Below, piece by piece: positions 7,819 to 61,892 of a stretch of 64,000 bases of DNA. Position 1 is the stretch's first letter. Every line of letters begins with the position of its first letter. The stretch is taken from NCBI RefSeq assembly GCF_023380265.1, contig NZ_CP093366.1:62001-126000 (forward strand), in the 5' to 3' direction. The DNA is from Bombilactobacillus folatiphilus (lineage in GTDB: Bacteria > Bacillota > Bacilli > Lactobacillales > Lactobacillaceae). The notes beneath the pieces were generated by a model. The model saw nothing but the letters and a program-made list of their open reading frames with translations, ran no database searches and had not been told where the DNA came from. The translations under genes and the position numbers were made by a program.

Positions 7819-7831
7819 AGATTGTAAGCAT

Positions 7832-7883
7832 TAAAAAAGAAAGCTGAAATTTGAGTGATCAAATTGTCGGCTTTCTTTTTTTG
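7832..7883 (+). terminator. Rho-independent terminator after yhgE-type gene
   Basis: AAAGAAAGCTGAAATTTG pairs with AAATTGTCGGCTTTCTTT and is followed by a T run. Confidence 0.8.
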
Positions 7884-8057
7884 TGGTGATCAAGTTAAAA
7901 AATAAACAAAAAGTATATTGTCAAAGCGAATAGATAATGCTAAATTGAAATGGTTGTATAGTTTTTTACATAATAATGATTATATTTGTATAAAAGCGTC
8001 AATAAATTGTTTAAATTATAAAATAAAATCAAAAATCAAAGGAATTGTTATCAAATC

Positions 8058-9857
8058 ATGGTTCAAAAACTGAGAGCAATCATTTTAGCGTTGCTACTAT
8101 TATTACCAATCAATTCTTTACCAAAAGTATCAGCTGCTACGACCAGAGCCACGCCCGTGAATGTGCAAAAGACAGCTAAACAATCAACGACGAGCGATTT
8201 ATTAACCGGTGATAACATCTGATCACAAATAACAGCCAAGCAGGTTGGACCTACGACCAAGGCTACTCTACTAACGGTGCCTTACCCTTAGCAACGCCAA
8301 TTACGGGGCAATTTGGTAGTTGTGATTGGACTATTGGAACTAACGGAATCTTAACAATTAATCCAGGAACTTTGGGAACTGCAATTGGTCAAACTTTTCA
8401 AGATCAGTATGGTAATACACGAAGTCCCAGTGGTGGTAATTGGTTACCATATTTCTTTTATATTACTAAGGTTGATAATTTCGCCAGGGGTTAAAGTTCC
8501 CACAAGTATGAACCGTTTATTCAGTAGTTTTGATACAGGAAATTTAGTGAAATCTTATTCGCAAGGATCCAGTAGTATTTTTGCTCATTCAGAACTTTGG
8601 CAGTTAACTTTAGGACCTAAAACAGCTTTTTTTAGATGATTATAACTATTCTAGTCAGTTACCACATATTGATAAGCATACCGATTCGTCTACTTTTAAA
8701 GACGGTGGCAAGACTTACCAAGTGCTCAGCAAAGATTGGCAGGCGGTTGGTGATGGGACGGTTCACCATCCGACAGGTAAAACTTATGATGGTGGAGCTG
8801 GGACATATACCAAGGATGGTTTTGAAACATGTTTAATGACAGGCCGTCCCCAAACGCAAACTTATGTTTGACAACACGAACTCCAAAATCATGCGCCGGC
8901 TATCAAGATTGATAGTGTTAATGATGTTACGACGAGTTTAGCATAAGTCCATGACTATCATGATGCGAATTTGCCAGCTATCACTTTTAAGGGGCAGATT
9001 ACCGATGAGGATAGCCCCAGTTATCAAATTTATTATGTAATTGATCCGATGACTGATCAAATGTCGGTGAAGGATGCTAAACAAATGACACCAGATCAAG
9101 GCTTTTATCCATTGGTGTCGTCGATCCCCAAAGAAAGTCCTGATAATAACCAAACTAATTATACTGTGGCTTTGACGGATAATGACGCGCTAGCACAGAT
9201 CGCAAAGCCACAAGCTGGAGGCCACAAAATTGGTCTGTATGTTGTGGATAATGGCTCACAAGGTAGTACCGAAAATCCTAAAATATCTCCGATAGCAACT
9301 TTTGCGGTACAACAAAACGGACTTGCGAAGTTCCATTATGTTGATAATGCAGGCAATCTCTTGCCAGAAATTAATTCTGAGGTCCCTGATCAAACGATTG
9401 TTGGCTTAGCAGGACAACCGATAGATTCCAAATATTTTCCTAAGGATGTTTGGACCAAACATTGTCATTACCAATTGAATTACAGTCAGTTACCGTCATC
9501 TGTAACTTTTGACAAAGATGGTGATCCTGATGTCAAGGCGGTTAATGTGCCTTATAATTTAGGAACGTTAACTTTGTCAGCTATGAAGAAACTGGATTTT
9601 GGGCAGGAAACCTAAAGTATGATTCTACGCCAATTACGACGGAGCCAACTGTGATCCGCAAGTTCAATGAAGCTGCAGATTCCAAAGGAGCTGCTTTGGG
9701 GGAGTCGGTGACAACGGATATTTCCAAAGACTGGTGGAACAGTCAAGATCAACAAGTAAATGGACCGATGCTGGATTTGCGGACGCTGACTACGACACCA
9801 GAAAAGAGAGCGTACAATGCAACTATTAATTGGAGCCTCACCAACAGTTTATTGTGA
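8058..9857 (+). pseudogene. Decayed WxL-domain surface protein gene
   Basis: The remains read as a secreted protein of about 600 aa. A signal peptide (MVQKLRAIILALLLLLP, cleavage near VSAA) comes first, then a BspA-like header (CDWTIGTNGILTINPGTL), a middle domain, a C-terminal LDFG and a WxL-type end (ATINWSLTNSLL). At least seven lesions separate these parts: TGA at 8220 with a frame change, a frameshift near 8490, a frameshift at the T7 run near 8630, TGA at 8869, TAA at 8944, and a frameshift near 9607 between LDFGQ and NLKYDS. The number of lesions rules out sequencing error as the only cause. Intact relatives lie at 39.3, 43.3 and 59.5 kb. Confidence 0.82.
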
Positions 9858-9897
9858 TAAAATTGTTATCTGTTGAGCTTGCCGGTAACGACTGAAA

Positions 9898-9913
9898 CGT
9901 TTCACGTGAAACA
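9898..9913. promoter_or_regulatory. parS centromere-like site (ParB binding)
   Basis: CGTTTCACGTGAAACA matches the conserved bacterial parS consensus TGTTTCACGTGAAACA at 15 of 16 positions; the central 14 bp (9899-9912) are a perfect palindrome. It lies in the intergenic space between the dead surface gene and the convergent SMR gene. parS sites cluster near oriC, which agrees with ychF at the window start. ParB itself is not in the window. Confidence 0.8.
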
Positions 9914-9919
9914 ATTTGA

Positions 9920-10240
9920 CTAATGATTACTAAAAAGATTGACGAGAACGATACCTAATAAAATCAAAACTAAGCCAATGATGGTCATGAAATTGAGATT
10001 TTCTTTCCAGATAAAGTAACTAATCGCGGTGGTGGCCACAATGCCAATGCCGGACCACAAGGCGTAGGCGACACTTAAGTTGATCGTCTTCAAGGATAGT
10101 GACAAGAAGTAAAAGCAAATACCATATGAAAGTAACGCGCCAAGTGTGGCGAATAATTGGGTGAAACCATTTGAAGCTTTCAACAAGGAAGTACCCAAAA
10201 TTTCGCCGATCACGGCCACAACTAAATAAAGATAACTCAA
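9920..10240 (-). CDS. SMR family multidrug efflux protein
   Basis: 106 aa from a TTG start, MSYLYLVVAVIGEILGTSLLK, placed 10 bases after AGGAGG; the longer frame to 10315 has no ribosome site and gives an atypical N-terminus. Four membrane helices, the usual SMR size (105-110 aa), with the essential membrane Glu in helix 1 (E13, GEILGTS) and the helix 3 motif YALWSGIGIVAT. SMR proteins work as dimers exchanging protons for cationic, hydrophobic compounds such as quaternary amines. Only one SMR gene is seen here, so a homodimer is likely. Confidence 0.9.
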   Translation of the reverse strand: MSYLYLVVAVIGEILGTSLLKASNGFTQLFATLGALLSYGICFYFLSLSLKTINLSVAYALWSGIGIVATTAISYFIWKENLNFMTIIGLVLILLGIVLVNLFSNH

Positions 10241-39048: not shown

Positions 39049-39256
39049 GTGCAAAAAATTATTGATTTTAGTTAAAATATATTTATGTGAAAACTTTGTT
39101 AAATATATCATTCTAAAAATCCCAAGTGAGCTAAAAATAATTTGCATTATTTAATCAGATTGCTAGACAACCATTTGCAAACGTCGCATCAGTCGATTAA
39201 ACTGAAATTAATTTTACAAGTGTCAATACCAACAAAAACAGGAGCAGTATGTTAAA

Positions 39257-41679
39257 ATGTTTTGTCATTTATCACGATTAGCTAGAACTAATAGGAACCA
39301 TAAGAAAATCCTAGGGGGGGGGGTTCACTCCTATTAATTTTGGCTAGTTTATTTTTTTTAGTTTCGATACATAATGTGCAAGCCAAGAAAACAACTTCTT
39401 TGACCATCACTCCAACACTCATTGACGATGGTTTTAATACACCTGAATATACTCAACAGGAGCAAGCTGTTCCCACGGGTTTTACTGATATAGTTGCTAA
39501 ATTACAACTAGCAAATGGGTTTTCTTGTGGTGTCAAAATGAATGAAAAGCAAACACTGGATACTAATAATGAATATTATTATGATAATTTATTTCGTTTG
39601 CTTCATACGCAAACAAGTGGTCAAGAATTTGATCTGGAATTAAACTATGATTTGTTAGCTGTAGATGATAATTTAAGTAATCATTCTTCAATGCTAGAGG
39701 GTAAACATTATGTTGGGGAGTCTTCGTTGCATGATGCCACTCATGATGCCGCTATGGGAAAATATTATGTAATTAAAGATAAAGTTGGTCAAATTAAGGC
39801 TATTAAATGGGTGAATTATTCGACGACGAATAATTATACTGGTGGTAATATTCCGAATAACGCGTTTGTTGTGGAAAAATTAATTACACCATCAAAAAGT
39901 TCAACTTCAGGGGTTGATGTTCAATTATTTGTTAAGAATATTTCAAAAGCAACTTATGGTTATGGTGTAGATTTCGATACAGATGATCATTACTACGGTG
40001 TGGATAGCTCATCTGCAGCCAAGGCATTGGGTGATAACCAAGGTTTTACCACATTATTAGGTGATAACAATAACTTGAATCTGACCGTTAGAACTAAAGT
40101 TTCTGATGGACCCAATCGCTATTTTGCAGGACATTTAGGCAAGATAAACGATTTGTTTCAGGGTTCGACTTTTAGTAATTGTGTTGGTCAGGAAGCGGAA
40201 AATTATTCTGTAGGTACTGTTTTAGATTCAGGTAATGTAATGAAAAGTTTTTACTTGTTATGGCCATGGAAGAGTATTGCCCCACAGGAAACGCAGCATT
40301 ATAATACTGAAATTGAGTTGGAGACGGCTGGACAAGCCAAACCTGTCTTGACTCAAAATTACAGTAATTCCCGTTCTTCACGTTTTAATTATCAGGGAGA
40401 TAAGCTTAATCTGCAGGTTAAGCTGGTTAATAATAATGATAGTCGAGGCAGTTTAACACCCACAACCTTTTATGTGAATTTACCACAAGGTTTATCTGTG
40501 ACGAAGGCAGATCTGGAGCAAATATATAGTGAGGGAACAGTTGCAGAATCTGCTGAATATGACGCTAATACTGGACAAGTAAAAATCATTTCAAATGGAT
40601 CATATTTATCTAATCCTAATGACTCAATTTCAATCAATATTCCAGTGACAGTTAGCAATGATGCACCGATGGGTGATGCTACAATCAAAACTAATTTTTC
40701 AGGTGAAAATAAAGATGCCACTGGTGCTCATCAGACAGTTACAGCTGATTCCGCCGACTTGAAAGTACCAATTACGCCATCATATGATGCCAAACTCACT
40801 TCTGAGGTTAAAAATACGAGATATTCAAGTGTTTATGCCAGTTCGGCGCAATATGTGCCGGGCGATACTTTGACGTATCATGCGCAGTATCAGTTGAATA
40901 GTGACAATGAATATGCTTTAAAGGCGCCCGTAACTTTTGGCAACAGTAATTCGGGATTGGATTTTTCAGATAGCGCGCCAAGTGTAACGGTCAACGGTGA
41001 TAGTTCGGTGGCGTCGGCGTCAGTCGATCCTGTGACCGGCAGGATTACAGTAACTAAGACCAGTGGTAACTTCAGTCCGGGTGATTTGCTTGATTTGACG
41101 TATAATGTCAAAGCTAAAGCAGATCCCGTAGCCGGTGAACCGGGCGCTAACCACGAAAGTACGATCACCGCACCATATAATACGGTGAGTGTCAGTGGGA
41201 CGCGCAGTGATGGACAGGCGATTCCGAGCGCGTCTAGTGGTACAACGTTGCAACGTAAGGATTTAGATTATTTTGTGCGTGTGCCTGAGGTGATTGATTT
41301 TGGGCACAATCCATGCGTCTTTGACAGTCCGTTTTATAGTACGACTAGTGGTCGGTTGAAGTTCAGTCATTATTCGGCTTCGGGCAGTGGTCAATATTAT
41401 ATTCAAATGAAGTATAATCAGGATTTGCGCACCAGTGCGTATGCTTACTTGCGGCCGGATTCGGGGAACGCGCTGATTGAATATCGACCTAACGATTATG
41501 GTTCATATCAATCAATTGATGGCATCGCCGGTAATTTGTCGACGAGTGGTTTCACCACGCAAGGTATTAGTGATTTGACGAGTTATGTGTCGGATAAGCA
41601 TTTTCGCTTGAATTCCAATGATAAACCGCTAGGCAATTACAGCGGCACGATGACGTGGACGTATAGTAATTCGCTTTAA
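39257..41679 (+). CDS. WxL-type surface protein, probably phase-variable (frame broken at a poly-G tract)
   Basis: About 807 aa if the frame is restored. The ATG at 39257 begins a basic stretch (LARTNRNHKKIL) that runs into ten consecutive G (39314-39323). As given, the frame ends after 26 codons. With 11 or 8 G it continues as GGGGSLLLILASLFFLVS to a cleavage site at NVQA-KK, a complete signal peptide, and joins the long frame seen from 39340. The mature part has a domain with an LDL/WxL-like middle, two repeats of surface-protein beta domains (about residues 370-640), a VIDFGHNP start and a GTMTWTYSNSL end typical of WxL peptidoglycan-binding domains. AGGAG is 12 bases before the ATG. Whether the window shows an OFF state or a base-calling error cannot be decided here. 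Confidence 0.75.
39314..39323 (+). repeat. Homopolymer tract G10 in a signal-peptide region
   Basis: Ten consecutive G, between CTA and TTCACTCC. It is the longest G run I noticed in this AT-rich window, and it lies exactly where a one-base insertion restores the reading frame of the surface protein. This is the classical substrate of slipped-strand phase variation. Confidence 0.85.
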
Positions 41680-41714: not shown

Positions 41715-41754
41715 AAAAAAGAACCTTTCAAGAAGTCTTGAGGGGTTCTTTTTT
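41715..41754. terminator. Bidirectional terminator after WxL gene
   Basis: AAAAAAGAACCTTTCAAGA pairs with TCTTGAGGGGTTCTTTTTT. Confidence 0.85.
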
Positions 41755-43265: not shown

Positions 43266-46200
43266 TTAATTCAAACTGTTCACTGCACTCCAAGTAATCG
43301 TACCATCATATTTGCCTTCAGGTAAACCATCATCTTTGAGATCTAAGAATAAGCCGTTAGGGTCGCTGGACGTAGGATGAGTATTAAGATTTTTACTACT
43401 CTTTTTGGCAAGGGCGCCTTGGAAAATTAAAGCAGGATTATTGAGATTGACTTGATCGGCGGCGTTAACCTGGTAATATAAGCGACTGGCAATCTTTGGA
43501 TCACCCTGATATTGAGCATAAACGTTGATATCATTCATATCATAGTCAGCGTTATTCAATAATTGGACATACTGGTCTACTGCATCAGGATAGAGCAAAC
43601 TCTTTTTATCATTAGGTCGTTTCGAAAAGTTCAATGCTTTGGGCACCTTCAATTGCAAATCGGGTTCGGTAATGAGATATTTAACTGCTGGGGTTGCGGC
43701 CAGTTGTTTGGTAGTACCATCTGGTAAAACGGCTGATAATACATCACTATCAGTTTGGAAATAATCTTGATTGGACAGACCTTTCACATCAACACTTTGC
43801 TGGATTTTAAAAGTGGTATCCGCCGGAATCTTGTCGTCAGGAAAGGCGAAATTTTTGCCCGATAAATCATAGAGATTATCGTCATTGGTGATTAAAGTGA
43901 TTGTTTTGGACAACGTTTTGTCAGTGCTCATGGTATCAGGATTAGGATAACTGGCCGTGATTTTGATATTTGGATCGTTCAGTTGCCCACCGTCAGTAAT
44001 AGCCCCCAGTTGCAACTGGACTTGACTCATATTATGGTGCCCCACGGGCGTAAATTTAGTGACCAGCGTCTGTGGACCAGCTCCAATTGTTGCAGCTTGC
44101 TGGGCAGAACTTTGAAAATTCTTGGTTCCGATGTATTTCGGATACGGCAAAACTTGATATTCATAAGTTAGATCTGGATTGCCCAATAATGGATAACGAT
44201 TGCTGGGCGTGAGATCGTCTTGACCGGAAAAACTGATTTTATGGGTGGTGTCATCCGTATCCGTACTATTGGTAATATCGCTGATAGACCAGTCGGTGTG
44301 ACTGTCACTTTGGTCGGAATTATGCTGCATTGCCAGTTTGGGACTAGTTAGTGTCTTATCTTGACCGGCGTCTTTGACGGTACCGTTGAGTGTGAGCTCT
44401 TGGGCGCTGGGATTACCATCAAAATAACTGATCGGAATTTTGACATCGTCACCAGTCAAATATTGGGTGACTTTTTTATCAGTTTTGAGCACCAGATTCA
44501 CAATATCAATCGGCTGTTCAGGTGTTTGCTGAAAATTAGCGACCGCACTGACGGCTAATTTGTCTTTCGAAGAAAGGTCCCCGATGGGATTATCTTTGGG
44601 CAAATCATCTAAAACTTTCTGTAAATTAATATCGTACGTATAAGTCGGATATTTTTTATCAGTGTCATTCTGTGGCGTTATTTGAACTTCTTTTTTGTCG
44701 GGAGATAGATATTGGGGGGCAGATTCGACGACGTTGCCGTCACCACCTGTGGCTAGTAAACCGTTTTGTTGTTGATTGTCGCCTACACCTAAAACATCCG
44801 GGGTAACAGGGAGTTCTTTGGCGGTTGTTTTTTGAGTCCCATAGGCTTGCGAAGGATTAGTGGTACTACCCAAATCGTACGACTTGTCACCGCGTTTGAG
44901 AGTTAGCCGAATCATTGGTGGATCTGGATCAAAACTCGTATCGTCATCGTAGTGCGTCACGGTCCCCGTTAAGTGAATATCTTTATTTTTGTGGGGCACA
45001 ATGGCAGTGGTTTGATTATCAATCACCGGACTATCCACCTTACCAAATTGCAGAGTATGGAATTCTTTACTATTCATAGCATTTAAACCAGTTGTTAATT
45101 CTTTGCGCGGTTCTTTTTTGGCATACATCGCAGCAGTGCCATCGGTGACTAAATTGTTAGGCGTACTCCAATAAGAAAACGGAATTTGCATTTTTTGAAT
45201 AGGGATATTACTTAATTGCACATTCTTGCTATTGTCCGAACCGATAGAACCATTAGGTCCACTAACAGTGCTAGCATCACCATTAGCGCTGACGGTACTG
45301 TTATCAACGTTGATGTAACCACCGGGATTATTTTTGTCACCGCCTTCAATATAAACTAAGTTGGATTGCGGATTATTATTAGTGCCTAGATCAAAATCAA
45401 CTTCTTTCGGGTTAGAAATATTAAACTGTAATCCCTTTGCCGCTTGGAGCAAATTCATGCCGTTGTTGATTTGTTTATCACCGGTGTTTCGTAAACGAAA
45501 AATTCCATCTTTTTTAACGTAAACGTTCATACCCCCACCGATGTACATTATATAACCATTGGAGGGCGTCCAAGTGCTGTTAGGTGAGCCGGTCCCAAAA
45601 TCATGTAAGTTGTTGGCTTGGACATCAAAAGTCCCGTTATCAATGGTAGCGGTACTTTGATTACTGCTACTATTACCTAGATAAATTAGGGGGTTACTAT
45701 TTAAAGTTGCCCCCGTTGTTGTTGTGGAGCCATCCGTCCCGGTACCACCATTACTGGTAGATAAACATGAAACATATTTGCCATAATCGTCCGTTGAAAA
45801 ATCATAGTCGTCACCATAGGCTTGATAATTGACATTCTTATCACCCGTTGCTGTATTATTCGTCGCTGGAATATTTAAATTACCATTTTGATCCATCACA
45901 TTATTTTCGGGGTGCACATAATCCATCGTGCTTTGATCATTACTTTGCACCCGGATAGTCGGCGAACCGGTGTTGTCTTTGTGATAGTTCAAATCAAACT
46001 GACCAGAAACGTATAATCCGCCAGCTAATTCTAAGTTATGGCGCAATTTGTTGGTGCCATTATAATATTGCCCTTTAGCTGGCGCATCGTTGGAAATAAT
46101 ATTTAATTCTGCATCACCATATAAATCCATCTTAGATTTGTCACCTAAAGAGGTGATCGCGTAGGGCATGCCTTTGGAATTACCAGCATTTTCGGCGGAA

Positions 46201-47378
46201 CCATCCCCGTGTGGGAAGAGATAAACTTTGGCGCCATCCTCCAGTTTGATACTATTACTTTTATGGACATCATTGATTCCTGCGTTATTGAGGGCAATGC
46301 CAATTCCGTCATAGGTATAACCTGTAAAGACACTGTTTTGATCAAAAATAATTTTAGAGGCTTCAAAAATTTGTTGATCACCGTTGTCATCACATTGATA
46401 TTCGATTCCTTTATATTTATAACGGTCGACTGAAGACATATCAACGCGATTTTTGATAATAATTTCTGTGTTGGCTGACCCACTACCAGAGTTATGGACT
46501 TGCGAGCCTAAATAGCTAAAATTATCATACGTGAGGCGAGTAAAGCCGCCGTTGGTTTCAATCGTGGCATCACCGGTACCATTGTCAGCTGCTTCGGCAT
46601 TATCGGCGACGCCATTGTTTCCAGCGACAGGTCCCCAATAAGTGGTTCCATAAGTGTGCAGATTTTTAAAACTCCAATCTTCCTTGTATAAACCGCCGGG
46701 CGAAGACAAAGCAATACAATGAGAACTAAAATTAATCGTGTGACCTTGACCGTCAATAGTGAATTTAAAGTGGCGTGCATAATTATAGCTATACGTGGAA
46801 CCATTGGCAAAGCCGAAACTGCCATCAATATTAGAAGTGTCGTAAAAGTCTAAGTCTTGCTTAATTACAACCTTGCTAATATGAGAAACACGATTGCCAT
46901 AATCAGGATTTTGCAAATCATAAACAGCTTCTAAAAAAGCCAAAGGGGTACTGACATAAGCAGTGTAAGTATTTGTAGATTGAAGATTTTTACCATTTGA
47001 ATCAATTAAATACTGAAAATCGGTTTTATTGCCGTTAGTTTGACCTTCCGTATTAACAGTAAAATAATTTTTACCATCGTTAGCATTCGCTTGAGCTTCA
47101 CTATCTGTCCATTGAAAATCAGGATACATATATAATCCTGGATGACTATTACCATCTGTGGCAGCATCTCGTAACATAGGTGAAGGCTGCGTTAAAAAAC
47201 TAAAATTAGCTGGGGCTTGTGGTGCATGCGCATTTGGATAAAGAATATTGTCTAAAGTTGGGTTATTAGTAGTCAATGTGGTGTTGGATGCTTGGGTAGT
47301 GTTAGTGCTTGATGTGCAAAGAAGATAAAATATACTGATAATTATAAAAGTTATTCCTAATTTAAATTTGCTATTCAT
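43266..47378 (-). CDS. Giant WxL-domain surface protein with pectate-lyase-like region
   Basis: 1370 aa. Signal peptide (about 1-30, cleavage near TQAS). Residues about 145-480 have a parallel-beta-helix look: SKVVIKQDLDFYDTSNIDG, FTIDGQGHTINF, and repeated short beta and Asn turns, as in pectate-lyase-like adhesin domains. The middle (about 560-760) continues this pattern and is followed by several beta-sandwich segments (about 790-1240). The C-terminus has LNFSKRPN and GKYDGTITWSAVNSLN, the WxL wall-binding end. Likely a non-covalently bound adhesin; no LPXTG motif. Asn, Asp and Thr are very frequent. No homopolymer tract was seen in its signal-peptide region. Confidence 0.85.
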   Translation of the reverse strand: MNSKFKLGITFIIISIFYLLCTSSTNTTQASNTTLTTNNPTLDNILYPNAHAPQAPANFSFLTQPSPMLRDAATDGNSHPGLYMYPDFQWTDSEAQANANDGKNYFTVNTEGQTNGNKTDFQYLIDSNGKNLQSTNTYTAYVSTPLAFLEAVYDLQNPDYGNRVSHISKVVIKQDLDFYDTSNIDGSFGFANGSTYSYNYARHFKFTIDGQGHTINFSSHCIALSSPGGLYKEDWSFKNLHTYGTTYWGPVAGNNGVADNAEAADNGTGDATIETNGGFTRLTYDNFSYLGSQVHNSGSGSANTEIIIKNRVDMSSVDRYKYKGIEYQCDDNGDQQIFEASKIIFDQNSVFTGYTYDGIGIALNNAGINDVHKSNSIKLEDGAKVYLFPHGDGSAENAGNSKGMPYAITSLGDKSKMDLYGDAELNIISNDAPAKGQYYNGTNKLRHNLELAGGLYVSGQFDLNYHKDNTGSPTIRVQSNDQSTMDYVHPENNVMDQNGNLNIPATNNTATGDKNVNYQAYGDDYDFSTDDYGKYVSCLSTSNGGTGTDGSTTTTGATLNSNPLIYLGNSSSNQSTATIDNGTFDVQANNLHDFGTGSPNSTWTPSNGYIMYIGGGMNVYVKKDGIFRLRNTGDKQINNGMNLLQAAKGLQFNISNPKEVDFDLGTNNNPQSNLVYIEGGDKNNPGGYINVDNSTVSANGDASTVSGPNGSIGSDNSKNVQLSNIPIQKMQIPFSYWSTPNNLVTDGTAAMYAKKEPRKELTTGLNAMNSKEFHTLQFGKVDSPVIDNQTTAIVPHKNKDIHLTGTVTHYDDDTSFDPDPPMIRLTLKRGDKSYDLGSTTNPSQAYGTQKTTAKELPVTPDVLGVGDNQQQNGLLATGGDGNVVESAPQYLSPDKKEVQITPQNDTDKKYPTYTYDINLQKVLDDLPKDNPIGDLSSKDKLAVSAVANFQQTPEQPIDIVNLVLKTDKKVTQYLTGDDVKIPISYFDGNPSAQELTLNGTVKDAGQDKTLTSPKLAMQHNSDQSDSHTDWSISDITNSTDTDDTTHKISFSGQDDLTPSNRYPLLGNPDLTYEYQVLPYPKYIGTKNFQSSAQQAATIGAGPQTLVTKFTPVGHHNMSQVQLQLGAITDGGQLNDPNIKITASYPNPDTMSTDKTLSKTITLITNDDNLYDLSGKNFAFPDDKIPADTTFKIQQSVDVKGLSNQDYFQTDSDVLSAVLPDGTTKQLAATPAVKYLITEPDLQLKVPKALNFSKRPNDKKSLLYPDAVDQYVQLLNNADYDMNDINVYAQYQGDPKIASRLYYQVNAADQVNLNNPALIFQGALAKKSSKNLNTHPTSSDPNGLFLDLKDDGLPEGKYDGTITWSAVNSLN

Positions 47379-59518: not shown

Positions 59519-61892
59519 AAATATTCGTGGTTGGATTAGTAACTGAGTTTGTTAAGGTATATACCATGGTGGCGGTGTAAGAACCACTGTGGGGAACATT
59601 GCTGGCATCTAATTTAAATGGAATGGAGGTCCAACTGTGAGAATATGTGGAGGCATCGCTGGTTGGTGGTTCCTTAACGCTATTTTCATACATAATCCCG
59701 GAATTATTATTTGATAGTCGATCATTGAATAATAATTGTGGTGTAAAGGAAATGGTCTGATTTGTATCAAGTACAAAAGGTGAAAGACTGTAATTAATCG
59801 TAAAACCACCTCGGACACGGGGATCTCTTGTATCATTAACGCTAATGGCAAACGGTTTTTCCTTGTCTGTCGATTTGGGAGTTAAATTGTCTAGAGGTTC
59901 ATTCATGTAATGACTTTGAAAGTCTAAATCACCTGGATATTGTGTCAAAGAGATAGTTCCCTTAGTTTGTCGCCAGACGTAAGTTTTGGAACCAGCTAAC
60001 CGATCGTCGTCTAACACGGCAACTCCACTCTCAAATGAAGTACCATTAGGTTCGTGATCACTACCCCCAGCTTTATCCTGCCAACCACCGTTAGAAGTAT
60101 AGGTTGTAGGAAATTCAGCAGAAGTATTTAATGAATCAGCACCCAACATTTTACCAGCCGGTCCATCGTTTAATTTGGCCACAGAATTACTATCTCTAAA
60201 ATTAGTTTGAGATCCTAAAACTATTTTCCAGAGATTACTGTCACCTTGAAACATCTTGTTGTATGAAATATTGCCACTGGAGTTAGACGACGTTAAGTTC
60301 ATGGGACTAATGTCTAGGGTATGCAGGTTAGAGCAACCACTAAACATGGAGTTAGCATTGTTTAAACTAGTTTGGTTAGTCATAGGATCGTTGAATTGCC
60401 AATTAGTTAAATTCAAATGAATTAAATCAGAACAATAGCTAAACATACTATCCATATTTTGAACTTGAGAGACGTTCCAGCTATTAACATCTAGATATTG
60501 TAAACCGGTAGATGAAAACATAGATTGCATATTCGTTACCTTAGCAGTATCCCAGTTTGCCAAATTAGAAATATCACGTAAACTAGAACAATTTTCGAAA
60601 ACAGCCCCCATATTCGTTATTCCACCAGTGGACCAGTCTTCAAGTCCATTAACTTTTGTCAAATTAGTGCAATTATAGAACATGTCAGAGATATCAATAA
60701 CGTTATCAACCTTAAATCCTGTTAAATTAATTGTTAAAAAACTAGTTCCCGCAAACATATAAGAAGTGCTTGTGACCTGGTTAGTTTGTAGGAGTGCAAA
60801 ATTGTAGTCATCATTAGGTGGTTCTGTCAAGGCAGCATCATACTGGAATAAACTTTGAAAAGAGGTAACGTGAGAAGTATTAAAACCTAAAAAATTGTGA
60901 GCATGATCAAAAAATTTAACTGTCGAAATTTGACTTTCAGCAAACATACTATACATGTCTGTTAAAGAATCAGTTTGCCATTGACTCAAGTCTAAACTGA
61001 CAGGTGCGGATGCTTGCTGAAAATATTGGTAAAACATAAGGCTCATATTTTTTACATGTGTGACGTTTAATTTATATAAATTGATTAATTTAATACTATT
61101 ATTGGCAAACATATCTTGCATGTTAGTGACCTTAGCAGTATCCCATACATTATCCTGTGGCTGAAAAGTGATTGTTGGACTGGTGGTATCATTTAAAGCA
61201 CTATTACTAAACATATAACTCATATCAGTCACAGAATTAGTCACAAAATTTTCAATTCCGTTTATGCTGGATAACGCATAATCACCATAAAACATTGCTT
61301 TCATACTGGTCGCACCCGTCGTGTCCAAATTATTTAAACCGGAGATGGTGGTGACTGAGTTTAAACCGCCAAACAAGTATTCTAAAGATGCATTCTGATT
61401 TTTAACAGTTAAAGGTGTATTTATTTGAATAGAATTTATTGTGAGACCAGCTTCCTGTTGCCAAGGCCATATTCTAGACGAGGAATAACTGGATGTATCA
61501 TTACTGTTACCACTATTAGTTTTTTCCGTAGTATCCTCATCATAACTTAAGCCTTCACCATCAGGACCATTTTGGTTGATTATCAAGGTTTCACCACTAA
61601 TATACCACCAACTGCCATCTCTTAAATTTAGTTGCTGTTGGAAATTACTGACAGGATTAACGGAAGGATTTGATGGTGGATCATTGGTTATGGAATCTTG
61701 GGTTTCATGAGTTGATGAAAGGGGCTCAACAGGCTGAATTTGCATTTTTGTCAAAGAAGTTTGAAAATTTTGACGAGATTGATCAGAAACTGGCGCTGCT
61801 TGTACTTTGGATAAGGGCAGCAAACTGACGATCAAAATCAAAATTAAAGCTAAATTGAAACTATTTACTAATAATTGACGCTTATTATGCAA
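59517..61892 (-). CDS. BspA/DUF285-repeat surface protein with WxL-type C-terminus
   Basis: 791 aa from a TTG start seven bases after GGGGGA. Signal peptide (about 1-32, cleavage near VQAAP). Residues about 90-560 contain at least ten DUF285 units of about 25 aa (VTDMSYMF, VTNMQDMF, VKNMSLMF, LTDMYSMF and so on), as in BspA-like leucine-rich surface proteins. A GSWWYISGETLIIN header precedes them, and an LDFQSH to SGSYTATMVYTLTNSV wall-binding WxL-type domain forms the last 140 residues. Likely an adhesin bound non-covalently to the wall. Convergent with the lectin gene, whose DUF285 part is related. Confidence 0.85.
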   Translation of the reverse strand: MHNKRQLLVNSFNLALILILIVSLLPLSKVQAAPVSDQSRQNFQTSLTKMQIQPVEPLSSTHETQDSITNDPPSNPSVNPVSNFQQQLNLRDGSWWYISGETLIINQNGPDGEGLSYDEDTTEKTNSGNSNDTSSYSSSRIWPWQQEAGLTINSIQINTPLTVKNQNASLEYLFGGLNSVTTISGLNNLDTTGATSMKAMFYGDYALSSINGIENFVTNSVTDMSYMFSNSALNDTTSPTITFQPQDNVWDTAKVTNMQDMFANNSIKLINLYKLNVTHVKNMSLMFYQYFQQASAPVSLDLSQWQTDSLTDMYSMFAESQISTVKFFDHAHNFLGFNTSHVTSFQSLFQYDAALTEPPNDDYNFALLQTNQVTSTSYMFAGTSFLTINLTGFKVDNVIDISDMFYNCTNLTKVNGLEDWSTGGITNMGAVFENCSSLRDISNLANWDTAKVTNMQSMFSSTGLQYLDVNSWNVSQVQNMDSMFSYCSDLIHLNLTNWQFNDPMTNQTSLNNANSMFSGCSNLHTLDISPMNLTSSNSSGNISYNKMFQGDSNLWKIVLGSQTNFRDSNSVAKLNDGPAGKMLGADSLNTSAEFPTTYTSNGGWQDKAGGSDHEPNGTSFESGVAVLDDDRLAGSKTYVWRQTKGTISLTQYPGDLDFQSHYMNEPLDNLTPKSTDKEKPFAISVNDTRDPRVRGGFTINYSLSPFVLDTNQTISFTPQLLFNDRLSNNNSGIMYENSVKEPPTSDASTYSHSWTSIPFKLDASNVPHSGSYTATMVYTLTNSVTNPTTNI

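Follow-up and report, generated by a model that had tools for sequence, protein, structure and literature searches.

Where the start codon and basic region of a signal peptide lie in one frame, and the protein that should follow them lies in another behind a run of ten G, the question is whether the gene is broken, miscounted or switched. Such a gene (hereafter the window gene) occurs in the 64,000-nt stretch of Bombilactobacillus folatiphilus DNA analysed here (the window; C1:62001-126000 of a 1.64-Mb genome in two contigs). Its leader frame starts at ATG 39257 and ends at TAA 39335-39337 (39257..39337, plus strand, like all features of this gene). As sequenced it has 26 codons, translated as MFCHLSRLARTNRNHKKILGGGVHSY, and contains the basic n-region of a signal peptide. 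From leader codon 20, behind the in-frame codons ATC CTA, it enters a run of exactly ten G (39314..39323), the proposed slippage switch and the sole G or C homopolymer of eight or more within the window. The body frame (39304..41679) is open for 791 codons, counted stop to stop. Its earliest listed start is TTG 39340 and it has no basic start of a signal peptide; start codon and basic region both come from the leader. A repeat of at least eight units is thereby placed in the 5′ coding region, at the point where the leader and body frames meet. Right behind the run the body frame reads SLLLILASLFFLVSIHNVQA and then KK (39325..39384), by eye a plausible hydrophobic core with its cleavage site, and reading on in frame from the ATG of paralog L047 gives nearly the same peptide. 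The sequence-only reading of this DNA had described ten G splitting a leader from a long body frame without decay over more than 2300 bases, and had calculated that adding one G or removing two would join them; run, leader, body and the shift between the two frames are all as it claimed. Another homopolymer, T8 at 39352-39359, was considered as the site of a frameshift and rejected, the frame there being unchanged relative to the paralogs.

A promoter-like pair, TTTGCA (39174-39179) and TAAACT (39198-39203) with 18 nt spacing (39174..39203), was picked out by eye from its resemblance to the consensus and is conserved across the alignment of nine leader copies. A Shine-Dalgarno-like AGGAG (39240..39244), similar in the paralogs, lies 12 nt upstream of ATG 39257 and 4 nt upstream of an out-of-frame ATG at 39249. 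Downstream of the body, an inverted repeat followed by a T run looks by eye like a terminator (41720..41754). The G run is only mildly unusual within the window: 5 of 100 dinucleotide shuffles reached an equal count of such 8-mers, and it is therefore not remarkable from the window alone. What goes beyond chance is the placing of G runs at this leader site across the genome.

With the body of the window gene as query we obtained 15 matches in the genome, and its 251-nt leader region gave ten matches at E <1e-16, nine of them non-self at 72-89% identity. Nine leaders, dispersed but all on one contig, carry a G run at one and the same site, and in six of them it has at least eight G. The run counts ten G in the window gene, twelve in L043, L047 and L048, eleven in L045, nine in L046 and six in L051, whereas in L049 and L050 it counts seven, six of which follow CTG, since the first G replaces the A of CTA. 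The tenth leader match, at C1:404907, is a remnant whose similarity stops before the run site, and no G run of six occurs within the following 500 nt. Only eight distinct runs of at least eight G exist in the whole 1.64 Mb; six are in these paralogous leaders, one is in the body of L046, and one is in ftsA, where nine G form GlyGlyGly codons in frame. The run within L046 (G8, C1:1483313-1483320, minus strand) lies in the variable part of the body, at its frame break, and might be a second switch. The leader precedes two kinds of body: the type of the window gene, represented by seven copies including the window gene itself and with pieces 32-82% identical to it, and the type of L043 and L045, which contains an SdrD_B domain. 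The earlier description of a single-gene contingency locus consequently understated the case, which is a dispersed multigene family; as to contingency, it gains from leader runs of 6-12 G, near-identical copies, constrained bodies and a parallel in another genus.

As assembled, only the leader of L047 is in frame with its signal core. A shift of +1 would be required in the window gene, L043 and L048, one of -1 in L045, L046, L049, L050 and L051. Shifts that differ in sign, and are zero in L047, are what a random phase predicts, and they speak against a fixed recoding signal. One in-frame leader in nine is fewer than the one third expected of a random phase, although the deficit is not significant (probability of one or fewer in nine about 0.14, by our own arithmetic). 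The bodies are intact in six of the nine copies (the window gene, L043, L045, L048, L050 and L051), with 790-845 codons, and the remaining three have a single break each, at the internal G8 in L046, at a 1-nt insertion in L047 and at a 1-nt deletion in L049. Six leaders have an ATG in the leader frame, and the other three have no ATG, GTG or TTG there: L043 and L045 (ACG instead) and L048 (ATA instead). In the assembly none of the copies is fully ON, the sole in-frame leader heading the broken body of L047. The leader family is thus partly decayed, with three leaders without a usual start, three frameshifted bodies and three runs of just six or seven G (L049, L050 and L051). Since each of the other copies is without a usual start, broken or short in run, the window gene is the only one that combines a usual start, a run of at least eight G and an intact body. 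The sequence-only reading had counted against itself either a fixed run length or a run of ten together with other inactivating changes. Neither was found in the window gene, although other inactivation is present in three of the nine bodies and three of the nine leaders have no usual start codon in frame.

Between the paralogs of this one genome, the length of the run changes much faster than its flanks. L043 (C1:171 kb) and L045 (C1:1498 kb) are identical over 2730 bp bar one G (12 vs 11). The leaders of L046 and L047 differ by one substitution in the 150 nt before runs of nine and twelve G, those of L046 and L051 (nine and six G) by four substitutions plus four gap columns, and those of L049 and L050 by three substitutions, with the same run. 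Slippage predicts such run differences between near-identical copies. An error in the assembly consensus could mimic the single-G difference, but not easily nine versus twelve versus six.

The bodies are constrained on average. In all 21 pairs of the seven W-type copies (those of the type of the window gene), dN/dS was 0.188-0.467 over the full length and 0.049-0.376 in the C-terminal third, with synonymous sites saturated in many pairs and three rows pieced across a break. Being below 0.5 throughout, these values agree with the earlier suggestion that selection acts on the body, in the sense of average constraint. The C-terminal third of L046 and L051 differs by 8.5 synonymous versus 1.5 non-synonymous changes (dN/dS 0.05). 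Such values describe an average over past time and need not reflect expression today. Comparison of the paralogs also divides the body of the window gene into a variable N-terminal part and a conserved C-terminal third, the residues shared with its five closer paralogs (L048 is more distant) rising from 45-50% in the N-terminal third to 78-82% in the C-terminal one. L046 and L051 are 96% identical over 303 bp at the leader and 98% over 1436 bp near the end, with 64% of residues shared in the N-terminal third, while L049 and L050 have a nearly identical leader ahead of different bodies. Blocks of identity that begin and end inside genes form the pattern that segment exchange would give.

As to the nature of the protein, its earlier designation as a WxL protein failed: Pfam gave no WxL match (PF13731) at E ≤1, and hhalign against the three PF13731 proteins of this genome returned a probability of 1.1. 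There is some W-x-L-type likeness by eye at the C-terminus, SGTMTWTYSNSL in the window protein and SGTVTWTLNNSL in L048, and a weak profile match (probability 31) between the C-terminus of the window protein and a family from Xylocopilactobacillus. At E ≤1 the only Pfam match was Big_8, a sub-threshold Ig-like domain; no Opa homology appeared among the matches at this level. An AlphaFold model based on seven paralog rows is a chain of beta-strands with a mean pLDDT of 64. Among the best 50 of 1161 Foldseek matches in the PDB, all with TM <0.4, integrins came first, and PrgB, antigen I/II and SdrE/ClfB-type adhesin domains were present. At such pLDDT and TM values we take from the model only a string of Ig-like beta-sandwiches, so that, at low confidence, the protein may be a string of beta-sandwich domains, possibly acting as an adhesin. 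The canonical WxL proteins (L160-L162, PF13731, C1:1292-1305 kb) stand beside genes that by eye resemble DUF916-like partners; a relationship between them and the leader family was considered and dismissed, hhalign giving no alignment, and they are separate.

Other surface genes lie in the same window. A dead relative had been reported at 8-9.9 kb, a relationship that did not hold up, the region giving no tblastn match to the window protein or to four other surface proteins at E ≤1e-3; the readable end of the broken gene there (7819-9920), NATINWSLTNSLL, resembles the C-terminal ending of the surface proteins of the leader family. A 1370-aa surface protein encoded on the minus strand (43266-47378), with a pectate-lyase-like adhesive domain (PF20585), has a similar C-terminal ending, GTITWSAVNSLN, and no G run of seven or more in its gene. 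A third gene, also on the minus strand (59520-61892), encodes a BspA-like DUF285 surface protein (PF03382, E 2e-47), the domain type of the poly-G family of Xylocopilactobacillus described below.

FtsA places the genome in Bombilactobacillus, its best named hits being those of B. thymidiniphilus (64%) and B. bombi (63%). The window protein is without a homolog in six sibling species of the genus. Two of their genomes contain five runs of at least eight G, in or near other genes and, by eye, none in a signal-peptide leader. Outside this genome, relatives of the window protein were absent from two scans of genome contigs and from plasmids, and a protein search gave four matches, all on a contig as long as that of this genome. 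The body of L043 is distributed more widely, with matches at E ≤1e-10 in 9 of 397 Lactobacillaceae genomes (4 of 40 genera), and it is homologous to proteins of Xylocopilactobacillus (40% over 483 aa). Two (L196 and L197) of the ten homologous loci besides L043 and L045 have a run of at least six G near the start; the other eight, among them three sibling-species loci and two Xylocopilactobacillus loci (L187 and L188), have none. The homologs P0008, P0009 and P0023, from other sources, begin by eye with ordinary signal peptides.

In a survey of runs of at least nine G in the 397 genomes, 133 contained at least one (seven in G000, eleven in each of two genomes and six in each of five, by eye), and Xylocopilactobacillus apicola (G108, eleven runs) and X. 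apis (G014, six runs) stood out. The analysis went into four of the seven genomes with eleven or six runs. With at most two mismatches allowed, the leader motif was found 15, 12, 0 and 1 times in four Xylocopilactobacillus genomes (1, 1, 0 and 1 times with the reversed pattern as control). From X. apicola and X. apis we sampled 23 stretches (L163-L185; 12 and 11, respectively). In 22 of them a run of G8-G10 stands behind the leader and is followed by an uninterrupted body of 851-1303 codons; behind the G10 of the remaining one, L174, the frame has just 62 codons. The leaders mostly end in (K/R)AADFP, although L176 has no clear hydrophobic core and L163 shows no ATG in the leader frame. Both states are present: seven of the 22 genes are in frame (six G8 and one G9 variant) and 15 are out of frame (G9 or G10), with five in frame (all G8) and six out (all G9) in X. 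apis, and two in and nine out in X. apicola. Directly before the run, 19 of the 22 stretches scored (a set without L173) have an ATG (ATGGTAGCG) in a frame different from that of the leader, which might start the body without a signal peptide. Two out-of-frame members, P0011 and P0012, are publicly annotated from this ATG, in the body frame and without signal peptide; in the two cases compared, annotation would hence hide a putative switch gene. The eight members examined are BspA-like (DUF285) and L-type-lectin surface proteins. Like that of the window gene, this is a multigene family of the Lactobacillaceae with a G run at the 5′ end, a signal peptide and a large body, but here the run directly follows the cleavage region of the signal peptide and the leader is unrelated, which suggests that the switch was probably gained separately in the two genera.

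Among 30 loci with at least nine G from the survey, three show a frame of at least 399 codons after a short leader: the window gene (L075), L078 (G009) and L079 (G105). In L078 the run is G9 and the frame behind it 399 codons long, in L079 G11 and at least 499 codons, in both cases in a frame other than that of the short leader. The same survey brought up some further loci. L102 (G385), in which a leader resembling a signal peptide (YTRWSLRKLSIGVASVAIASGFFVYTG, by eye YSIRK-like) precedes G9 and a body of at least 499 codons follows in another frame, is a candidate for another switched surface protein. In L128 (G235, another genus), a frame that by eye resembles a glycosyltransferase (LTIDADLQHNPKYIADFVEKAEQGSDFINASRYIF ahead of the run) seems to be divided by a G12 at mid-locus; it is possibly a phase-variable sugar-transfer gene. 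L103, L107, L111 and L126, also of G235, are a repeated element with G9, G10, G10 and G12, similar flanks and no long ORF behind.

Taken with these observations, the G run is in our judgement quite probably a slipped-strand contingency switch of a mosaic surface-protein family, a reading to which the paralogs and the second genus give more strength than it had when first put forward. DNA replication would gain or lose G in the run, and only every third run length would let a ribosome beginning at ATG 39257 read on into the body frame. Leader and body joined in this way would encode an Ig-like surface protein that has a full signal peptide and is exported; out-of-frame lengths would yield a peptide of 26 residues. 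One cassette of putative promoter, ribosome site, n-region and G run heads the differing bodies of the dispersed family, and, as members appear to swap segments, reversible phase variation might be combined with variation of the antigenic type. Against this count the partial decay of the family with no fully ON copy, the long Shine-Dalgarno distance to ATG 39257 with its nearer rival, the data of a single assembly in which homopolymer lengths are the least reliable part, the alternative ATGs of Xylocopilactobacillus and the runless homologs L187 and L188.

Four other accounts bear on the same facts. We regard it as unlikely, yet worth keeping in view, that most copies are unexpressed donors, a silent reservoir in which leader and C-terminal region serve as arms for gene conversion and the run is a by-product or an aid to recombination. 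The mosaic identity of L046 and L051, the shared leader of L049 and L050 and the start codons missing from three copies would fit such a reservoir, which by itself accounts neither for long pure G runs of unequal length nor for the poly-G family of Xylocopilactobacillus, while the window gene has a start and promoter-like region of its own. It is also compatible with a slipped-strand switch, and the two can coexist. Ordinary pseudogene decay, with the family being lost and the out-of-frame run as one more inactivating indel, seems improbable: the three bodies damaged beyond the leader by a single indel or a break, the remnants L053 and L054 and the absence of the window protein from sibling species are set against six bodies free of stops and frameshifts, the low dN/dS in the C-terminal third of L046 and L051, and the recent duplication of L043 and L045 as whole genes.

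The assembly itself might be wrong, the true run having one fixed in-frame length and the window gene being an ordinary, constitutive surface gene. Runs of 9-12 G are easy to miscount, and eight out-of-frame leaders in nine exceed the two thirds expected at random, although, as said, not significantly. However, the copies with six or seven G are out of frame as well, although such runs are easier to sequence, the nine-G run of ftsA is in frame, most large ORFs of the window are by eye continuous except the broken gene at 7.8-9.9 kb, and six copies have kept pure runs of at least nine G where synonymous glycine codons could have interrupted them; we hold miscounting to be a poor explanation. 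Long G runs can cause both RNA polymerase and ribosomes to slip, and bodies that stay intact while out of frame would agree with programmed ribosomal or transcriptional slippage giving a fixed in-frame fraction without change of the DNA. Such slippage is nevertheless very improbable given that the required shift differs in sign among copies and vanishes in L047, and that near-identical copies vary in a run length which a recoding site would not need to vary. A slipped-strand switch thus remains the reading that we prefer.

Mucosal pathogens provide the classic examples of poly-G contingency loci. Bombilactobacillus is associated with bees. Among the open-access papers listed on phase variation and slipped-strand mispairing we found no report of such loci in Lactobacillaceae; two lactobacillus papers among them had ‘contingency loci’ in their reference lists only. 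If the proposed switch is true, a commensal owns a phasome comparable to those of mucosal pathogens. We lean towards the view that at least two genera of lactobacilli, probably insect symbionts, have separately built Opa-like repertoires, in which poly-G runs in or directly behind the signal-peptide leader set the expression of some thirty mosaic surface proteins, cell by cell, across three genomes. The source of Xylocopilactobacillus is carpenter bees (PMC10433979). Should the switch be real, and should this strain live in an insect as related species do, the symbionts would diversify their surface without facing adaptive immunity, and phage pressure, tissue tropism and strain competition become directly testable drivers.

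The mechanism itself is already known, and homopolymers at 5′ ends have been described as a general means of switching (PMC2831843). A close arrangement is that of the pilus loci bbr_0113 and bbr_1889 of Bifidobacterium breve UCC2003, where a G run separates a short ORF with a Sec signal from a long surface-protein ORF whose start has neither ribosome site nor signal, and where replication slippage joins the two; with the ORFs set in frame, pili are formed (PMC9187656). Those are sortase-dependent pilin operons of an actinobacterium, studied at two loci (PMC9187656), whereas the present family consists of Ig-like and other surface proteins of the Lactobacillaceae, with nine dispersed leaders of one origin, and is known from sequence alone. 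Gardnerella, likewise Gram-positive and host-associated, has runs of at least eight near surface-protein genes, with 9 versus 10 bp between colonies at one tract, although about 70% of its G/C runs are upstream of ORFs, the functions are many and the tracts do not belong to a single leader cassette (PMC11287997). In Neisseria gonorrhoeae, about 11 dispersed opa genes have a repeat in the coding sequence of the leader peptide, the number of repeats sets the frame and the products are variable adhesins (PMC3745409). Dispersed copies, each with its own leader repeat, are common to both systems; the repeats of opa are CTCTT pentamers and its products outer-membrane proteins of a Gram-negative organism (PMC3745409), in contrast to the G homopolymer and unrelated proteins found here. 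The family of the window gene works like the Opa family without being a member of it.
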